Below, piece by piece: positions 27 to 11,637 of a stretch of DNA of 64,000 nucleotides (position 1 is the first letter of the stretch; the number at the start of each line of letters is the position of its first letter). The stretch comes from Magnetococcales bacterium (GTDB taxonomy: Bacteria > Pseudomonadota > Magnetococcia > Magnetococcales > Magnetaquicoccaceae), in assembly GCA_015231915.1 (NCBI GenBank), contig JADGAR010000014.1:1-64000 (forward strand), given 5' to 3'. A program made the position numbers and the translations under genes. The notes under the pieces were generated by a model. It saw only the letters and a program-made list of their open reading frames with translations. It was not told the DNA's origin and did not search any database.

Positions 27-302
27 TTATTTCGACGAAGAGGTCGCCATGCGCAGGGCAGGCGTGGCAGCGGCCTCGGGTGTCCGTGGTTCCACAACCT
101 TCTGACCGATCACAAACGAAGCACTCACCCTGCGCGGGGGATCCTCGGGTTTGGTGGCAGGCGCAACCGTGGCCGGCGCGGACGGGACAGGCGCAGGCGA
201 CGACGGCTGCTCCGGCCTGGGGGGCCTGCCGATGGCAAGCGCAACGGCCTTGGCGCGGGGCGCGATCGGTTTCGTGGTCTGCTTTTCGTCAGGGCCGCTC
301 AT
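27..302 (-). CDS. short Pro/Ala-rich hypothetical protein, translationally coupled to upstream ABC transporter gene
   Basis: 91-aa ORF whose ATG overlaps the TGA of the ABC gene (ATGA at 299-302); Pro/Ala-rich, no recognised domain; near the window edge. Confidence 0.4.
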   Translation of the reverse strand: MSGPDEKQTTKPIAPRAKAVALAIGRPPRPEQPSSPAPVPSAPATVAPATKPEDPPRRVSASFVIGQKVVEPRTPEAAATPALRMATSSSK

Positions 303-2458
303 ACAATGCCTCCGGGAATCTGCCTCAGGACATCATCCGGCTTGCCGGAGAGACGCAAATAACCCTGCTCGAAATAGAAGACCTGATCCGCCAACCGGAT
401 ATGGCTGGGACGGTGGGTGACGATAAAGATGGTCCTCTTGCCACGCAACTCCCCCACCACCCGGATGAAGGCCTGGTCATCCTCCCACCCCAGGCTGTTG
501 GCAGGTTCGTCGAACAGCATGATCTTGGAAGGCTTGAGATAGGCACGCGCCAGGGAGAGCTTCTGCACCATGCTCGAGGGGAGCTGGGCCGATTTCTGGT
601 CGCCGAGACGGGTCCAGAACTGATTGGGCAACGCCATGATTTCATCATACACCTGCGCCTTGCGACACGCCTCCTGCAAATCCTCGTCCGAGGCCGTGGC
701 ATGGGCCAGACGCAGATTCTGGGCAACCGTTCCATAAAAGAGGTGACAGGACTGCGGGACATACGCCACAGCATGACGCAATTCAATCACATTCATCTGC
801 CGAATATCCAGTCCGTCGATGCGGATGCTCCCCGCCTGGGGAGAATAAAGGCCGGCGATGAGCTTGATGACCGTCGATTTCCCGGAGCCGTTGGGACCGA
901 TCACCGCCACCACCTGCCCCGGCTGCACCTCGAAATTGACCCCCATCAGGGCCGGTTCGGCCTCCGGGACGTAACGAATGCTGACCCGCACAAAGGTAAT
1001 CTGCCCCCGGAAGGTCTTGATCGGCTCGATGGCGGCATACTCCTCCCGTTCCGGGACAACGTTCATGAGGCTGTTGATCTGATTGATGCTGGAATGGACC
1101 TGCTCCAGACGGGTCATGGCGACGAAAGCGCTCTGAATGGGGGCCAAGACCCGCCAGACCAGAATCATCGAGGCCACCAACCCCCCCGTGGTCATGTCGC
1201 CGGACATCACGCGAAACACCCCCAGTCCGATGACCGTCACGCCGGAACCGACGATCAGCAACGTGGCGATGGAGTTGACCAGGGCATTGATGAGGGCGGT
1301 GCGAAAGTTGGCCATGGCGGCCTGGGAAGACAGGGTCCGAAACCGCTCGAGCCAGATCTCCTCCATGCCGCTGTACTTGATCGCCCGCATGCGGCCCAGG
1401 CTTTCCACCACGAACTCCTGTTTCTTGCTGCTCGCCCTGCGGGAACGGGTCTCCTCCCTGGCCACCATGGGCGTCATCACCAGCCACAACAACACGAACA
1501 GAAACATGGTCACGATGGGAATCACCGCCAACACGCCACCGAGAATGCCGATCACCGCGAAAAACACCACGGAAAACGGCAACTCGAAAAAGACCATCAT
1601 CATGGGACCGGTGAAGAACTCCCGCACGGAGTCGAAGTCCTTGATGCGCGCCACCTGGGCGCCGGTCGGGGCGCGTTCGGTGAAACTGGGGGTCAGGGAG
1701 AGGATCCGCATGAAAATGGCGTTGCTGACGATGCTGTCCATGCGCGCCCCGACGTACATCAGCATCTTGGAGCGGACCTTGCGCAGCATCCAGTCGAACA
1801 GCAGCACGCAGGAGATCCCCAAGAGCAGATGGCTCAAAGTCTCCATGGATTGGCTGCCCACCACCCGGTCGTAAACCGCCATGACGAACAGAGGCGACGC
1901 GACCTGCATGAGCGTTATGAAAAAAGTCACGAGAAGAATATACACCAACAACTTGCGAAACCGCTCCGCCACCATGCCGAACCAACCCAACCGCTTTTGC
2001 AGTGCGGTTCGTTCCTCCAGATCCATGGCCTCGAAAAAATAGGCGGTCCCGCGCATGGAGGTGGCCGGGATGAACTCCACATTGCTGCTGGCACCGTTGA
2101 AGACGATGATGCCGTCCCGCTTGCGCTTCAAAAGGACCATGGCGGGCTCGCGATCCGGGACGAACAGGCAGGGCAGCAGTCGCGGATCGATCTCGTCGAG
2201 GTCGAACCTGCCCGGACGGCTGGCATAGGTCATGTTGGCCATCATGTTGCGAAGGCCGGTCAGATCGAGAGACTCGGCGAAGTGCGGCAGGGCCTCGGCA
2301 ATATGACGCAAGTCACCATGATAACCCATTGACATTAACAAAGGAATCATGCAGGCCCCAAAATCGGAGAGCCGTGCAAACTCCGCCAACAGCCCGGTGA
2401 CCGGCTGCCGGGGGCGCAGCAGCTCGCGGATGGCCTCCAGTTCCGGATCCCCGGTCAT
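299..2458 (-). CDS. type I secretion-like ABC transporter (degenerate C39-like N-domain, TM domain, NBD)
   Basis: Walker A 'VIGPNGSGKST', Walker B 'KIMLFDEPANSLG', signature region 'LPSSMVQKLSLARA'; start at MTGDPELEAI overlapping the upstream gene stop. Confidence 0.85.
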   Translation of the reverse strand: MTGDPELEAIRELLRPRQPVTGLLAEFARLSDFGACMIPLLMSMGYHGDLRHIAEALPHFAESLDLTGLRNMMANMTYASRPGRFDLDEIDPRLLPCLFVPDREPAMVLLKRKRDGIIVFNGASSNVEFIPATSMRGTAYFFEAMDLEERTALQKRLGWFGMVAERFRKLLVYILLVTFFITLMQVASPLFVMAVYDRVVGSQSMETLSHLLLGISCVLLFDWMLRKVRSKMLMYVGARMDSIVSNAIFMRILSLTPSFTERAPTGAQVARIKDFDSVREFFTGPMMMVFFELPFSVVFFAVIGILGGVLAVIPIVTMFLFVLLWLVMTPMVAREETRSRRASSKKQEFVVESLGRMRAIKYSGMEEIWLERFRTLSSQAAMANFRTALINALVNSIATLLIVGSGVTVIGLGVFRVMSGDMTTGGLVASMILVWRVLAPIQSAFVAMTRLEQVHSSINQINSLMNVVPEREEYAAIEPIKTFRGQITFVRVSIRYVPEAEPALMGVNFEVQPGQVVAVIGPNGSGKSTVIKLIAGLYSPQAGSIRIDGLDIRQMNVIELRHAVAYVPQSCHLFYGTVAQNLRLAHATASDEDLQEACRKAQVYDEIMALPNQFWTRLGDQKSAQLPSSMVQKLSLARAYLKPSKIMLFDEPANSLGWEDDQAFIRVVGELRGKRTIFIVTHRPSHIRLADQVFYFEQGYLRLSGKPDDVLRQIPGGIV

Positions 2459-4215
2459 CGTTTGCCCTCTGGGGCGGGGGCCGGTTTGACGAAGGGCGCC
2501 CTGGGAGGTTTCAGGGACAGGGTGCCGTTCTTGAGTTCGTATACCCGATCCGCCAGCCGCTCCAGGGAGGGGCGATGGGTGACCATGATCAAGGTCACCT
2601 TGCCGTGCATCGACTCCAGGACCGCCTTGAGCTTGTCGTCGCCGCTGCTGTCGATGGCGGTGTTGGCCTCGTCGAACAACAGGATGCGTGGCGAGGAGAC
2701 CAGGCCGCGGGCGATGGTGATGCGCTGTTTGATGCCTCTGGGGATGGTTTCGTCGGCACCGTCGTCGATGATGGTCTCGTACCCCTTGGGGAGCTTGGAG
2801 ACGAAATCCTCCAATTCCAGGCGACCTGCCGCTTCCATGGCCAGGTCCGCCCACTCCGGACGGAACATGTGGATGTTTTCCAGGATGGTCCCCTTGAACA
2901 GCATGCCCACCTGAGGCATGTAGGCCACCTGAAAGTGCAGGGTGCCGGGATCATACGAGGCAAGGTCGTAGTCATCCAGAAAGACCTGTCCCTCGGTGGG
3001 GCGCAGCGCCCCCATCATCAGCCACAACAGGGTGGTCTTGCCGCTGGCGCCCTGAATGGCGATGGTCTCGCCGGGATTGACCTCCAGGCTGACATTGTCG
3101 ATCACCTTGCGTGGAGGTGGCGGCGGCTTGTTGTCCCGGTTGCGCTGATCCGACTGTTCCACGGGATAGGCGAAACTGACATTCTTCAACACCACCTTGC
3201 CGCGCAACTCCGGGACCGGCGGGGTGCCAGGGGGGACGGCGGGTTTCATCTCGAAGATGGCGTTCAACCGCTTGCGGGCCACGCGAATGGTCTGAAAACG
3301 CGCCCAGATGCCCACCGCCTTCTGCAAGGGCTGAATGGAACGTCCGGCCAGCATGCTGCAAGCCGACAGTCCGCCGATGGTCAATTCGTGGTTGATGACC
3401 AGAATGCTGCCGAAGGCCACCACCCCCACGGTGGTCAACTGGGAGAAGAAGGCGCCGATGGTCTGGGCATCGGCGCCCTCCATGCCCACCCGTTGCGCCC
3501 CCAGGGCGCAGGCCTCCTGCAAGCGCTCGTAGCGCCGGAGCATCATCGCCTCCATGGCCATGGACTTGACCGCGTGAATCCCGGCCAGAACCTCGATGAT
3601 GAAATTGATGCGGATGTCATCCGACTTCATGCGGTCGGCCACGGCCTGATGCAACCGGGAACCGATGTAGAGGGTGAACAGAAGAAACAGGAGGAACAAA
3701 ATCACCGGAATCAGCACCAGCCAGCCGGCCAGATAATAGATCAGGACCAGGAAGACCACGACGAAGGGCAGATCCAGGATGACCAGCACGGCGTTGCCGG
3801 CATAGAAGTCCTTGATCACGTTCAGGGAGTTCAGCCGTTCCAGGTGGACGCCGGAGCCGACCCGCTCGAAATCGGCCAGATTGACCGACAGCAGACGCTC
3901 CATGGCGCCCACGCCGGCGTTGTGCTCGAAACGGGCGCCAAGCCAGGCGCCGACATAGGACCGGCCCATTTTCAAAAGTGCATCCAGAAAGGTGGCCATT
4001 GCCACACCGACCAGCAACAGCGCCAGGGTGCTGACAGCCTCGTATTGAAGAATCCGGTCATAGACTTGCAGCAAAGTCAGAGGCAACACCAGGGACAGAA
4101 TGTTGAGCATCAGGGAGACCAGCAGCAGATCCCAAATCGAATCCGCCACCAGGGAAAAGGGGGTCAGTTGCTCTGGCCAGCCATCCCTGGAAAAAAACGA
4201 ATCTTTCTTGGCCAT
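2455..4215 (-). CDS. type I secretion-like ABC transporter (TM domain plus NBD), shortened Walker A
   Basis: ABC exporter fold; P-loop reads 'IAIQGASGKTTLL'; Walker B 'RILLFDEANTAID'; start at MAKKDSFF. Confidence 0.85.
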   Translation of the reverse strand: MAKKDSFFSRDGWPEQLTPFSLVADSIWDLLLVSLMLNILSLVLPLTLLQVYDRILQYEAVSTLALLLVGVAMATFLDALLKMGRSYVGAWLGARFEHNAGVGAMERLLSVNLADFERVGSGVHLERLNSLNVIKDFYAGNAVLVILDLPFVVVFLVLIYYLAGWLVLIPVILFLLFLLFTLYIGSRLHQAVADRMKSDDIRINFIIEVLAGIHAVKSMAMEAMMLRRYERLQEACALGAQRVGMEGADAQTIGAFFSQLTTVGVVAFGSILVINHELTIGGLSACSMLAGRSIQPLQKAVGIWARFQTIRVARKRLNAIFEMKPAVPPGTPPVPELRGKVVLKNVSFAYPVEQSDQRNRDNKPPPPPRKVIDNVSLEVNPGETIAIQGASGKTTLLWLMMGALRPTEGQVFLDDYDLASYDPGTLHFQVAYMPQVGMLFKGTILENIHMFRPEWADLAMEAAGRLELEDFVSKLPKGYETIIDDGADETIPRGIKQRITIARGLVSSPRILLFDEANTAIDSSGDDKLKAVLESMHGKVTLIMVTHRPSLERLADRVYELKNGTLSLKPPRAPFVKPAPAPEGKR

Positions 4216-4390
4216 CGCACTCTCCCCCAACCAAAACGGATATACAACCATTTATCGGCCAAAATCGCTCATGAGGCAAGCGGGATTGTCTTGATTATAA
4301 GGCACACTCCTTGCTGAATCTCCGTTAAGAAAATCATAAAGCCAATGGACCCACTCTGGCGCACAGGCTGCACGATAAGGTAAAAAACTC

Positions 4391-6670
4391 TTGAAACAAC
4401 GAGTTACACAGAAAAAGGCACGATTGCGCCAAGCCGTGATGCTGTTGGCGATCATGTCATTTTTTTCGCCTTTTCCGGCACGCGCCATCACTCTGACCGA
4501 TGCCGTGAACGAGGCCATGCACTCCAATCCGAAGGTGCGCGCTGCGGCCCAGGAGTTGGAAGAGACCCGGCAGCGCATCCGTCAGGCATACGCCGGATTC
4601 CTGCCCACCATCGACATCACCACCGGCAAGGGCCGGGAGTGGATCAATTCCCCCTACACCCGCTCCTCGCCGGAGGGAGGCGCCCTGGTCATGACCAGAG
4701 GCGAGGCCGGCATGAGCATCAATCAGCCGATCTTCGACGGATTCAATACCCTCAACAAGTTGAGCCAGACCCAGGCGCAGGTGCAATCGAGCGAGCACTC
4801 CCATCGGGAGGAGATCGAAAACGTGACCCTGGCGGTGGCCGAGGCCTTTATCGATACCCAAAAGCAGCGTTCGCTGCTGGCCCTGGCGCGAGAAGCCCTG
4901 AACATCCACTCGGACCTGCTGATCAAGACCCGCCAGACGGCGCAACTGGGGATCAACGCGGAGATGGATGTCCGTCAGGCGGAGAGCAGGCTCTCCCTGA
5001 TCGCCTCGGAACTGGCCACCACCGAAGGGGCGCTGCGGGCTGCGGAAAGCAGGTTCTCCACGCTGGTGGGCTTTCCTCCCGGGGCGCTGGCCCAGGCCAC
5101 GGTTCCCAAACATCGTCTGCCCACCTCGCGGGCCGAAGCCATGGAGGTGGCCATGCGGCTCAATCCGATGCTGCTGTCGGCCAACTCCGACCTGGATGCC
5201 ACCCGAGCCGAGGGGAAGGTCAACGCGGCCTCGCTGTGGCCGAAGATCAGCCTGGACATGTCGGTTTCCGAAAGCAACAATGCCGGGGGCACCCGCAGCT
5301 ATACCCAGGACGCCACCGCCATGGTGAATCTGCGCTACAACTTTTTCCGTGGCGGGGCGGATCTGGCCAAGTTCCAGGAGACTTCGCACAAATCGCTGCG
5401 GTTCCGGGAAAAACTGGAGCAGGCGCGGCGTACCGTGGAGGAGAAGGTGAATGGGGCCTGGAACGCCCTGCTCGCCTCCCGTGCCCGGATGCAGAGCCTG
5501 GAGCGGCATGTGGACACCACCCATGCCGTCAATCGGGATCACAAGGAGAAGTTCCGCCTGGGTCTGCAAACCATGCTCGATCTGCTCAATTCGGAAAACG
5601 AACTCCAGGCATCCAAGCGGCTGTTGGTGCAGGAGCAGTTCCAGTTCATGACGGAGTCCTACCGTCTGCTGGCGGCCATGGGTCAACTCACCGAGGTGTT
5701 GACCAAACCGGAGAGTCCGGCGCCCATGCCGCATGAGGATCTCCCCCCGGTTGCCGAAGCGCAGCCCCCCTCGCCCGCGCCGGAGAGCGCGCCGCCCGCC
5801 CCGGAAGCACGGGATGCCCATATTTCCGAGGTCCAGGAGGAGACCATGAACCTGCTGGCCGAATCCCTGTTGAACACCCCGGTCCCTCGACCGCAACCTG
5901 CGGTGGCCGCACCCGAACCCCCTCCCGCCGCGCTTCCCGCCCCTCTCCCGCAGCCGCGCTCCAGGCCGGTTCGCACCGAGGAGGTGACCGATCTAGAACA
6001 GATTTCCCTGCTCGATTTCGTGCACCTCATGAGCGACGACGAATCCACGCCCGAAGCCAAGAGGCCCCCTGCCGACCTGCGGCAATTCGCCATCCAGATC
6101 GGTTCCTTTCAGGAAGAAACCGCTGCCCTGGAGTTGATCAGCCAATTGCAGGACAAGGATTACGACCTCACCCTGGCGGAAAGCAGTGAGGGCGCTCTGA
6201 CCTGGCATCAGGTGCGGATCGGGCGTTTCGACACGGAAAGCGCGGCGCGGGCCGCCCTGCAGGCGTTCACCGAACGGGAGGGGCGTCCCGGCTACATCAT
6301 CCCGCTGGCCAGACAAGGCTTTCACTCTGCGGCATCCGGCCAGACCAGCGTGCAAAAGGCGCCCCGGGTTCCGCCAGCCGAGGGCTATGCGGTGCAGGTG
6401 GCGGCCTTTCTGGCCCCAGAAGCCACGGAAAAGATGCTCGCCGAGTTGGCGGCCAAAAATAATTATCATCTATACGTCTGCGAGAAAAAGGATGCCAAGG
6501 GCCGGACGTGGCAGCTGGTCTGGATTGGCCGCTTCGACAATCGGGAAGAGGCGCAAGCCCTGGCGCAGGACTATTTTCTCCATCACAAACAGCCGGCAGT
6601 GGTCATCGAGGTGCCGTCGGGAACACCGAACGCCCCCTTGCGGATCCTGTCGGCGGGACCCCTGGCATGA
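4391..6670 (+). CDS. TolC-family outer membrane efflux protein with two C-terminal SPOR domains
   Basis: N-terminal TolC-like 'ITLTDAVNEAMHSNPKVRAAAQELEETRQRIRQAYAGFLPTIDI'; Pro-rich linker; SPOR-like 'QFAIQIGSFQEETAALEL...' and 'GYAVQVAAFLAPEATEKML...'; putative TTG start. Confidence 0.85.
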   Translation: MKQRVTQKKARLRQAVMLLAIMSFFSPFPARAITLTDAVNEAMHSNPKVRAAAQELEETRQRIRQAYAGFLPTIDITTGKGREWINSPYTRSSPEGGALVMTRGEAGMSINQPIFDGFNTLNKLSQTQAQVQSSEHSHREEIENVTLAVAEAFIDTQKQRSLLALAREALNIHSDLLIKTRQTAQLGINAEMDVRQAESRLSLIASELATTEGALRAAESRFSTLVGFPPGALAQATVPKHRLPTSRAEAMEVAMRLNPMLLSANSDLDATRAEGKVNAASLWPKISLDMSVSESNNAGGTRSYTQDATAMVNLRYNFFRGGADLAKFQETSHKSLRFREKLEQARRTVEEKVNGAWNALLASRARMQSLERHVDTTHAVNRDHKEKFRLGLQTMLDLLNSENELQASKRLLVQEQFQFMTESYRLLAAMGQLTEVLTKPESPAPMPHEDLPPVAEAQPPSPAPESAPPAPEARDAHISEVQEETMNLLAESLLNTPVPRPQPAVAAPEPPPAALPAPLPQPRSRPVRTEEVTDLEQISLLDFVHLMSDDESTPEAKRPPADLRQFAIQIGSFQEETAALELISQLQDKDYDLTLAESSEGALTWHQVRIGRFDTESAARAALQAFTEREGRPGYIIPLARQGFHSAASGQTSVQKAPRVPPAEGYAVQVAAFLAPEATEKMLAELAAKNNYHLYVCEKKDAKGRTWQLVWIGRFDNREEAQALAQDYFLHHKQPAVVIEVPSGTPNAPLRILSAGPLA

Positions 6671-9826: not shown

Positions 9827-11503
9827 ATGAATGCAGAAGATCACCCATTGACCGCCATTCAACAGGCAGGCGAAAGCCTGACCGTCGCGTTCAAAAGCGA
9901 TCAGAAGTCGCTTCCCGACCGGGAACTGTTGGCCGCCGTTGTGGCTCTGGCCAACACGGAAGGGGGTGATCTGTTGCTTGGCATCGAGGACGATGGCATG
10001 GTTACAGGTCTGCATGCCAACCATCGGGATGCCATGGGATTGACCGCCTTGATCGCCAACCGGACCATTCCCGCGCTTGCCGTGCGCATTGATGTGCTGG
10101 ATGTGGCTGCCGGAATGCAGGTTGCCAGAATTCGTGTGCCGAAATCCTGGCAACTGATCTCCACAGCCGATGGCCTGCTCCAGCGGCGGCGATTGCTGGC
10201 CAATGGCAAGCCGGAAGCGGTGCCGTTCTATCCTCACGAGTTCATGCAACGTCAAGCCGCCATGGGGCTGGCCGACCCTTCGGCGGTGGCGTTGTCATTT
10301 TTGTCCGTGGATGCGCTCAATCCCCTGGAACGCCATCGTATCCGGGAGGCCATCCGCCGTTATGGCGGGGATGCCGCCCTTTTGCCATTGGCGGATGAGG
10401 AATTGGATGGCGCGCTCGGCTTGACCACAACTGTGGATGGCGTGCGCTGTCCCACCCTGGCCGGTCTTTTGATGACAGGGCGGGAAGAGGTGTTGCGGCA
10501 GCATGTTCCCGCCCATGAGGTTGCCTTTCAGGTGCTGGAAGGAACCGATGTCCGCGCCAACGAATTTTTTCGCAAGCCGCTGTTGCAGGTGTTCGAGGAG
10601 ACGGAGCGTCTGTTTGCCGCCAGGGTGACGGAACACGAAGTGCAGATTGGCATGTTTCGGGTGCCGGTGCCCAATTTCGAGCGTCGGGCCTTTCGGGAGG
10701 CGTTGGTCAATGCCCTGGTCCATCGGGATTATTCCAGATTGGGTGCGGTGCATGTGCGCATCGATGACGATGGCCTGACGATTTCCAATCCGGGTGGCTT
10801 CGTGGAAGGGGTGACCCTGGACAATCTCCTGGTCACCGAACCACGTCCCCGCAACCCGCATTTGGCCGACATCTCCAAACGGATCGGGCTGGCGGAACGC
10901 ACTGGGCGGGGAATTGACCGGATTTTCGAGGGTCTGTTGCGTTTTGGCCGTCCGTCGCCGGATTATGGACGATCAAATGCCAGCTCGGTGATTCTGCGCA
11001 TGAGCAACGCCGATTCGAACCGTGATTTTTTGGAACTGGTCATCCGCGAAGAGAACCGTACCCGGCATCCCATGCCGTTGGAGAGTCTGATCATCCTGTC
11101 TCGTTTGCGCATGGAACGACGCTTGACGACCATGGAACTGGCGTCCTCCACCCAGAAATCGGAGTCGGAAACCCGCTCCGCATTGGAACGATTGACTGAG
11201 ATTGGTCTGGTGGAAGCCCACGGCACGACCCGTGGCCGAACCTACACCTTGAGTGCCACAGTTTACCGGAAGGTTGGGCAGGAAGCCGACTACATCCGGC
11301 AAGTGGGCTTTGATCCGATTCAGCAGGAACAGATGGTGCTGAGATTTATTCAGGAACACGGTACCATCAAACGGGCCGATGCGGCGGGCCTGTGCAGAAT
11401 CAACCCATATCAGGCCACCCGATTGCTCAACCGATTGGTTAACAATGGCAAAATCATGGCCAAGGGCAAAGGCAAGGGAACGGTTTATGAGCGGTGCCCA
11501 TAA
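9827..11503 (+). CDS. AlbA_2 (Schlafen-type) ATP-binding transcriptional regulator, COG2865-like
   Basis: 'AVVALANTEGGDLLLGIEDDGMVTGL', 'FREALVNALVHRDYSRLGAVHVRIDDDGLTISNPGGF', 'GRGIDRIFEGLLRFGRPSPDY'; C-terminal HTH-like region. Confidence 0.8.
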   Translation: MNAEDHPLTAIQQAGESLTVAFKSDQKSLPDRELLAAVVALANTEGGDLLLGIEDDGMVTGLHANHRDAMGLTALIANRTIPALAVRIDVLDVAAGMQVARIRVPKSWQLISTADGLLQRRRLLANGKPEAVPFYPHEFMQRQAAMGLADPSAVALSFLSVDALNPLERHRIREAIRRYGGDAALLPLADEELDGALGLTTTVDGVRCPTLAGLLMTGREEVLRQHVPAHEVAFQVLEGTDVRANEFFRKPLLQVFEETERLFAARVTEHEVQIGMFRVPVPNFERRAFREALVNALVHRDYSRLGAVHVRIDDDGLTISNPGGFVEGVTLDNLLVTEPRPRNPHLADISKRIGLAERTGRGIDRIFEGLLRFGRPSPDYGRSNASSVILRMSNADSNRDFLELVIREENRTRHPMPLESLIILSRLRMERRLTTMELASSTQKSESETRSALERLTEIGLVEAHGTTRGRTYTLSATVYRKVGQEADYIRQVGFDPIQQEQMVLRFIQEHGTIKRADAAGLCRINPYQATRLLNRLVNNGKIMAKGKGKGTVYERCP

Positions 11504-11505
11504 AA

Positions 11506-11637
11506 TACGTGCGCGCACGAAAAAATACGTGCGCGCACGAAAAAATACATGCGCGCACGAAAAAATACATGCGCGCACGAAAAAATACGTGCGCGCACGA
11601 AAAAATACGTGCGCGCACGAAAAAATACGTGCGCGTT
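11506..11637. repeat. tandem array of 20-bp units tac(g/a)tgcgcgcacgaaaaaa (6 full plus partial 7th)
   Basis: Exact 20-bp periodicity read directly; four of the six full units contain the perfect palindrome CGTGCGCGCACG followed by A6 (two have CATGCGCGCACG). Confidence 0.97.

Follow-up and report, generated by a model that had tools for sequence, protein, structure and literature searches.

The TolC channel of E. coli is a trimer whose C-termini lie in the periplasm, and in the textbook picture it merely touches the cell wall. How tripartite secretion ducts are positioned or held relative to the wall is, to our knowledge, poorly known. Among type I secretion systems (T1SS), the four-component system of MARTX has two ABC subunits, RtxB and RtxE, together with an adaptor and TolC. 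A TolC with a tail of SPOR domains has apparently not been described so far: in the literature that we searched, mostly outside subscription journals, no published description of a TolC fused to SPOR domains was found. Here, we describe such a protein, encoded in the 64,000-nucleotide stretch of Magnetococcales DNA that was analysed (the window), and find that a TolC with two SPOR domains is a conserved variation on a well-known machine.

Architecture of the TolC-like protein

The gene in question encodes 759 residues, which are organised as follows (positions are those of the window):

4391..6670, + strand: TolC-SPOR-SPOR open reading frame, 759 aa, TTG start, no internal stop
4391..4486, + strand: predicted signal peptide, residues 1-32 (...FFSPFPARA/ITLTDAV), read from the sequence by eye
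4493..5071, + strand: OEP repeat 1 of the channel (PF02321, 102.8 bits)
5135..5683, + strand: OEP repeat 2 of the channel (PF02321, 76.3 bits)
5693..6085, + strand: Pro-rich linker of variable length (70-224 aa among orthologues)
5822..5881, + strand: conserved amphipathic stretch in the linker, from the tail alignment (ISEVQEETMNLLAESLLNTP; ..AQEEAM.GLVEALF in orthologues)
6002..6031, + strand: short linear motif ISLLDFVHLM directly before the first SPOR domain, found by regular expression
6086..6301, + strand: SPOR domain 1, residues 566-637 (PF05036, 48.3 bits in the DNA search; also by fold)
6377..6571, + strand: SPOR domain 2, residues 663-727 (PF05036, 44.4 bits in the DNA search; also by fold)

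An earlier note had read this frame as a TolC-like channel followed by a Pro-rich linker and two SPOR modules, while allowing that the SPOR matches might fall below threshold or that the fusion, if absent from all relatives, might be an assembly artefact. Profile searches agree with the proposed architecture. The protein scores 284.9 bits against the NCBIfam model TIGR01844 (type_I_sec_TolC; cut-off 225.15) and contains two OEP repeats (158.6 bits in Pfam; cut-off 22), which places it among T1SS TolC channels. The linker, with its boundary set by a local OEP model, is 131 aa long and 22% Pro. The two SPOR domains behind it reach 83.8 bits combined (cut-off 21), and in the DNA search each of them alone exceeds the Pfam cut-off more than twofold. 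The fusion is found in relatives and occurs in many independent genomes, which rules out an assembly artefact. Judging from the basic n-region of the signal peptide, translation probably starts at the TTG codon or at one just upstream, not at the later ATG codons. Pfam matches to AP2, LppA and TPR_2 were weak and were either taken as chance or lay under the cut-off.

The fold of the tail agrees with the PF05036 scores in identifying a SPOR protein. AlphaFold modelling of the 200-aa tail alone, from one sequence, produced two β-α-β-β-α-β folds, the first with a pLDDT of about 78-90 and the second weaker, with about 53-69. Foldseek searches with this model retrieved the SPOR structures of CwlC, RlpA and DedD (TM 0.74-0.75 and rmsd 2.1-2.3 for CwlC and RlpA), including the RlpA SPOR domain solved with denuded glycan (6i09), onto which the tail model superposes. 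A profile of both SPOR domains, run against the PDB sequences, found CwlC and FtsN, and the tail used there as a single sequence gave chance matches only. A full-length AlphaFold model from a two-row alignment had a pLDDT of 39 and was not usable.

Structural work on SPOR domains makes it possible to compare individual residues. In the RlpA complex, the glycan is contacted by Q270, F274, the β1 backbone and R302/R309/R311, with contacts made mostly through the backbone, and in FtsN mutating Q251, S254, W283, R285 or I313 reduces septal localisation (PMC6895207). In our alignment, SPOR1 of the window has Gln, Ser, Phe and Trp at the matching places, Gln at the R285/R309 position and Arg at that of R311. 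Of the five localisation residues of FtsN, it thus keeps the equivalents of Q251, S254 and W283; at the R285 position, three orthologues (G004, G008 and G007) have Arg instead of Gln. SPOR2 has Gln, Ala, Phe and Trp, with Leu and Trp at the R309/R311 positions, a pattern conserved in the genus. Both domains therefore retain the glycan-site Gln and Phe, as do nearly all copies; of the basic patch, SPOR1 retains a part, and SPOR2 has lost it at the positions of R309 and R311. By these residues, SPOR1 is a good candidate glycan binder and SPOR2 an altered candidate. With the Arg pair of SPOR2 lost, peptidoglycan binding by the tail is putative; the loss of the arginines would lower binding and not exclude it, as the contacts are mostly made through the backbone.

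Among named genomes, the sole match was Magnetococcales bin WMHbin3, with 90% identity over the best segment and 92% over the whole protein. Both SPOR domains are present in seven other genomes of the window's genus; in the same genus, G007 has one SPOR domain, and G003 has none and carries a TPR-like tail. The TolC parts from this genus form one supported clade in the tree. The best conserved part of the tail is SPOR2, with the pattern GYAVQVAAF...W Q-[LM]-[IV]-W-I-G-R.

The secretion cassette and the tails of its channels

Two genes for T1SS ABC subunits are oriented divergently from the TolC gene:

2455..4251, - strand: ABC1, T1SS permease/ATPase without the N-terminal peptidase-like domain (ABC_membrane and ABC_tran; its best NCBIfam match, to the LssB family from profile position 151, is under the cut-off)
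299..2458, - strand: ABC2, T1SS permease/ATPase of 719 aa with an N-terminal peptidase-like (CLD-type) domain (LssB-family match from profile position 5, under the cut-off)

The window's own contig ends within this cassette. On orthologue contigs HlyD comes after ABC2, and here it is expected past the contig end. Linkage to ABC1 and ABC2 in the window, and to HlyD at the orthologue loci, agrees with the suggestion of the earlier note that the protein is a type I secretion channel. The same divergent layout of TolC and ABC1-ABC2-HlyD was also seen at six loci from other families of the order. With ABC2 as a query (E <1e-90), 30 genomes in a sample of 150 Pseudomonadota gave a match, and all except one (G075, 31% identity) belong to Magnetococcales. 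Where both flanks of the double-ABC cassette can be seen, neither an adhesin gene nor any other substrate gene is a conserved neighbour. A second TolC-SPOR protein of the same genome, on contig C60, is encoded near a 1337-aa frame in which both ABC subunits are fused, supporting the idea that ABC1 and ABC2 work as one transporter. This fused frame (L142:3230-7240) has HlyD on either side and the TolC-SPOR gene nearby.

Several other features of these loci deserve mention. The LSGGQ signature is missing in both ABC subunits (LPSSM in ABC2, IPRGI in ABC1), and this is conserved across several families; the forms in MC-1-like genomes are milder (LPKGI / LSSGF). The ABC1 P-loop in the window's genus has a two-residue deletion (GASGKTT). 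In G023, an AAA+SPOR (DamX/ExeA-like) protein (L144:7178-9385) directly adjoins the ABC1-ABC2-HlyD cassette. Elsewhere in the window, positions 11502-11635 hold a tandem array in which a 20-bp unit containing a palindrome, AAAATACGTGCGCGCACGAA, is repeated 6.7 times with 98% matches.

The tails of the channels are variable. We inspected 18 TolC tails of the cassette clade, most of them confirmed by synteny and two (G033 and G009) assigned by sequence only. They include tails with two SPOR domains, tails with one (four genomes), a TPR-like tail and short tails without any known domain (five genomes), the last found in orthologues of family f8 and of part of family f13. Mapped onto a tree built from 54 TolC cores, the presence of SPOR requires 8-9 changes, some of which fall on long, uncertain branches. 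The window's own genome has 18 OEP genes, counted by place, three of them with SPOR (on contigs C39, C60 and C91) and one with SH3. The SH3-tailed TolCs (L092:3377-6226 and L085:5000-7030) come from G013, where the gene lies beside two ABC genes, and from contig C129 of the window's own genome. SH3 on a TolC is another presumed wall-binding fold. In G014, a TolC has a C-terminal POTRA-like domain (L087:5306-7186; PF08479, 26.1 bits, cut-off 24). Family f5 has TolC frames of 1024-1100 aa with two SPOR domains some 330-360 residues apart (L082, L083 and L102), and no ABC gene was present in the stretch inspected at these three loci.

Outside the order, we considered a sample of the best TolC matches from 398 Pseudomonadota genomes, namely those listed. 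Long TolC frames were few among these matches: in those examined with Pfam, OmpA was detected in three, OmpA together with SPOR in one (G106) and no known domain in three more. The earlier note had called the fusion of TolC with SPOR unusual. This holds outside Magnetococcales, as the G106 protein was the only long-tailed TolC with SPOR among the matches listed; it does not hold inside the order, where the fusion is common. One further TolC, in G308, ends in a Cds6_C (NTF2-like) domain (L072:5151-7196) and lies beside a LapG-type protease gene.

A second element of the tail is the short motif in the linker, seen as SLLDFVHLM, ALLEYIGLM, SLIDYVEIL or PIMEFLSLM in the tail alignment and in SPOR-less tails. 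The expression [LIM]x[DEQ][FY][VIL]xx[LMI] matched 13 of the 18 cassette-clade tails, including SPOR-less ones, none of 27 other TolC tails and 0-9% of shuffled tails; as it was written after viewing the sequences, the counts are flattering, but the contrast to other tails is still large. In tails with SPOR the motif lies ahead of SPOR1, and in tails without SPOR it is close to the C-terminus, indicating that it is independent of SPOR. We regard it as a putative docking site.

Possible roles of the SPOR tail

We consider it probable, at roughly 0.55, that the SPOR pair tethers the channel to peptidoglycan. In this reading, the protein would form the outer-membrane channel of a T1SS of Magnetococcales; two different ABC subunits, ABC1 and the CLD-bearing ABC2, would make up the motor in the inner membrane, with HlyD as the adaptor. 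If it resembles the known TolC structure in being a trimer with periplasmic C-termini, each channel would expose three flexible periplasmic tails and thus six SPOR domains. These may grip glycan strands poor in stem peptides, so that the channel would be held to the wall by avidity. The linker motif may be a separate docking site of older origin, whose partner would probably be a periplasmic component of this system. Tethering is supported by the retention of both SPOR domains in the genus, by the residues of SPOR1, by the superposition on 6i09, by the divergent T1SS cassette and by the SH3 and OmpA tails of other channels. In particular, the replacement of SPOR by unrelated wall-binding folds (SH3, OmpA, OmpA+SPOR) on other T1SS TolCs suggests that tethering to the wall is their common function. 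On the other hand, SPOR2 has no counterpart of the arginines that make up RlpA's basic patch, and the cassette can do without SPOR, as in the short tails of f8 and part of f13 and in the TPR-like tail of G003. Tethering may serve to position the channel, to stabilise a very long duct or to carry load. The earlier note had predicted a channel localised or locked by peptidoglycan binding, possibly at division sites, and such locking is plausible.

The SPOR domains might instead bring the channel to division sites, leading to secretion there or at new poles. SPOR domains tested so far do go to septal denuded glycan (PMC6895207), and SPOR1 retains most of the FtsN residues. However, related channels carry OmpA or SH3, neither of which marks the septum, SPOR is absent from many cassette channels, and the Arg patch is missing in SPOR2. 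We therefore favour general wall anchoring, and regard septal or polar targeting as unlikely. It also seems improbable that the SPOR domains have given up glycan binding altogether to become protein-protein or spacer modules. The lost Arg positions of SPOR2 would fit such a change, as would the varying linker length and domain number and the replacement or loss of SPOR in relatives, but nearly all copies still have the glycan-site Gln and Phe, and SPOR2 is the very part of the tail that is conserved best.

A more specific possibility is a load-bearing anchor, in which a giant adhesin stays plugged in the channel, like LapA in its TolC, and the pull on it is borne by the wall. Outside the order, the TolCs closest in sequence are indeed encoded within a few kb of LapA-type retention-module adhesins, whether they are plain or fused to OmpA; the OmpA-fused ones lie within about 7 kb in four of four cases. 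In addition, the Shewanella bpfA operon has a separate OmpA-like gene, of unknown role, that is needed for biofilm (PMC4523816). However, in a control of 34 other genomes plain TolCs were beside retention-module adhesins as often. This showed the link to be non-specific, and we dropped the idea that a wall-binding tail is tied to these adhesins; as plain-tailed TolCs also export adhesins, adhesin export is not in itself an explanation for the tail. Nor did the loci searched support a "Rosetta stone" relationship, in which a separate OmpA gene, as in Shewanella bpf, would accompany a plain TolC: none was found at 14 plain loci with a local OmpA model, and none by Pfam in the genes tested after HlyD. 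In the window's own genome, the clearest adhesin T1SS (contig C45) has a plain TolC. The retention-module model NF033682 had no match above the cut-off in this genome (the weak ones sit on other contigs, and the window's own contig ends inside the cassette). A LapG-type protease (PF06035) is absent from the locus, and the genome has one C93 protein, on contig C49. Together with the lack of a neighbouring adhesin at double-ABC cassettes whose flanks can both be seen, these observations make a load-bearing anchor for an adhesin quite unlikely.

If tethering is the correct reading, a broader picture can be tentatively drawn. The T1SS tail in Magnetococcales might be modular, combining an old docking motif with a wall anchor of exchangeable type (SPOR or SH3, and OmpA outside the order) that was gained or replaced several times. 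Anchoring of the exit duct to peptidoglycan could then be a general, unrecognised need of T1SS whose ABC motor has two subunits and whose cargo is very large or is retained. As related channels repeatedly use unrelated wall-binding domains, this idea can be tested by comparison. A channel with built-in wall-binding domains also offers a direct approach, since deletion or swapping of the tail could show whether a T1SS depends on being held to peptidoglycan and whether secretion can be steered to division sites.

Comparison with known systems

The protein has the SPOR fold and some of the glycan-binding residues in common with FtsN, DamX, DedD, RlpA and CwlC, which are either division proteins or enzymes acting on the cell wall; none of them is a secretion channel. 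A possible parallel is the RtxB/RtxE system of MARTX, which likewise combines two different ABC subunits with an adaptor and TolC. By sequence, the nearest channels outside the order are the LapE/AggA TolCs of LapA-type adhesin T1SS, several of which have a C-terminal OmpA domain; these work with a single LapB-type ABC protein and an adjacent adhesin, whereas the present locus has two ABC subunits and no adhesin nearby. Finally, like the TolC proteins described by TIGR01844, the protein has a channel domain that scores above the family cut-off and is encoded next to T1SS genes; unlike them, it continues behind the channel into a 320-residue tail with two SPOR domains.
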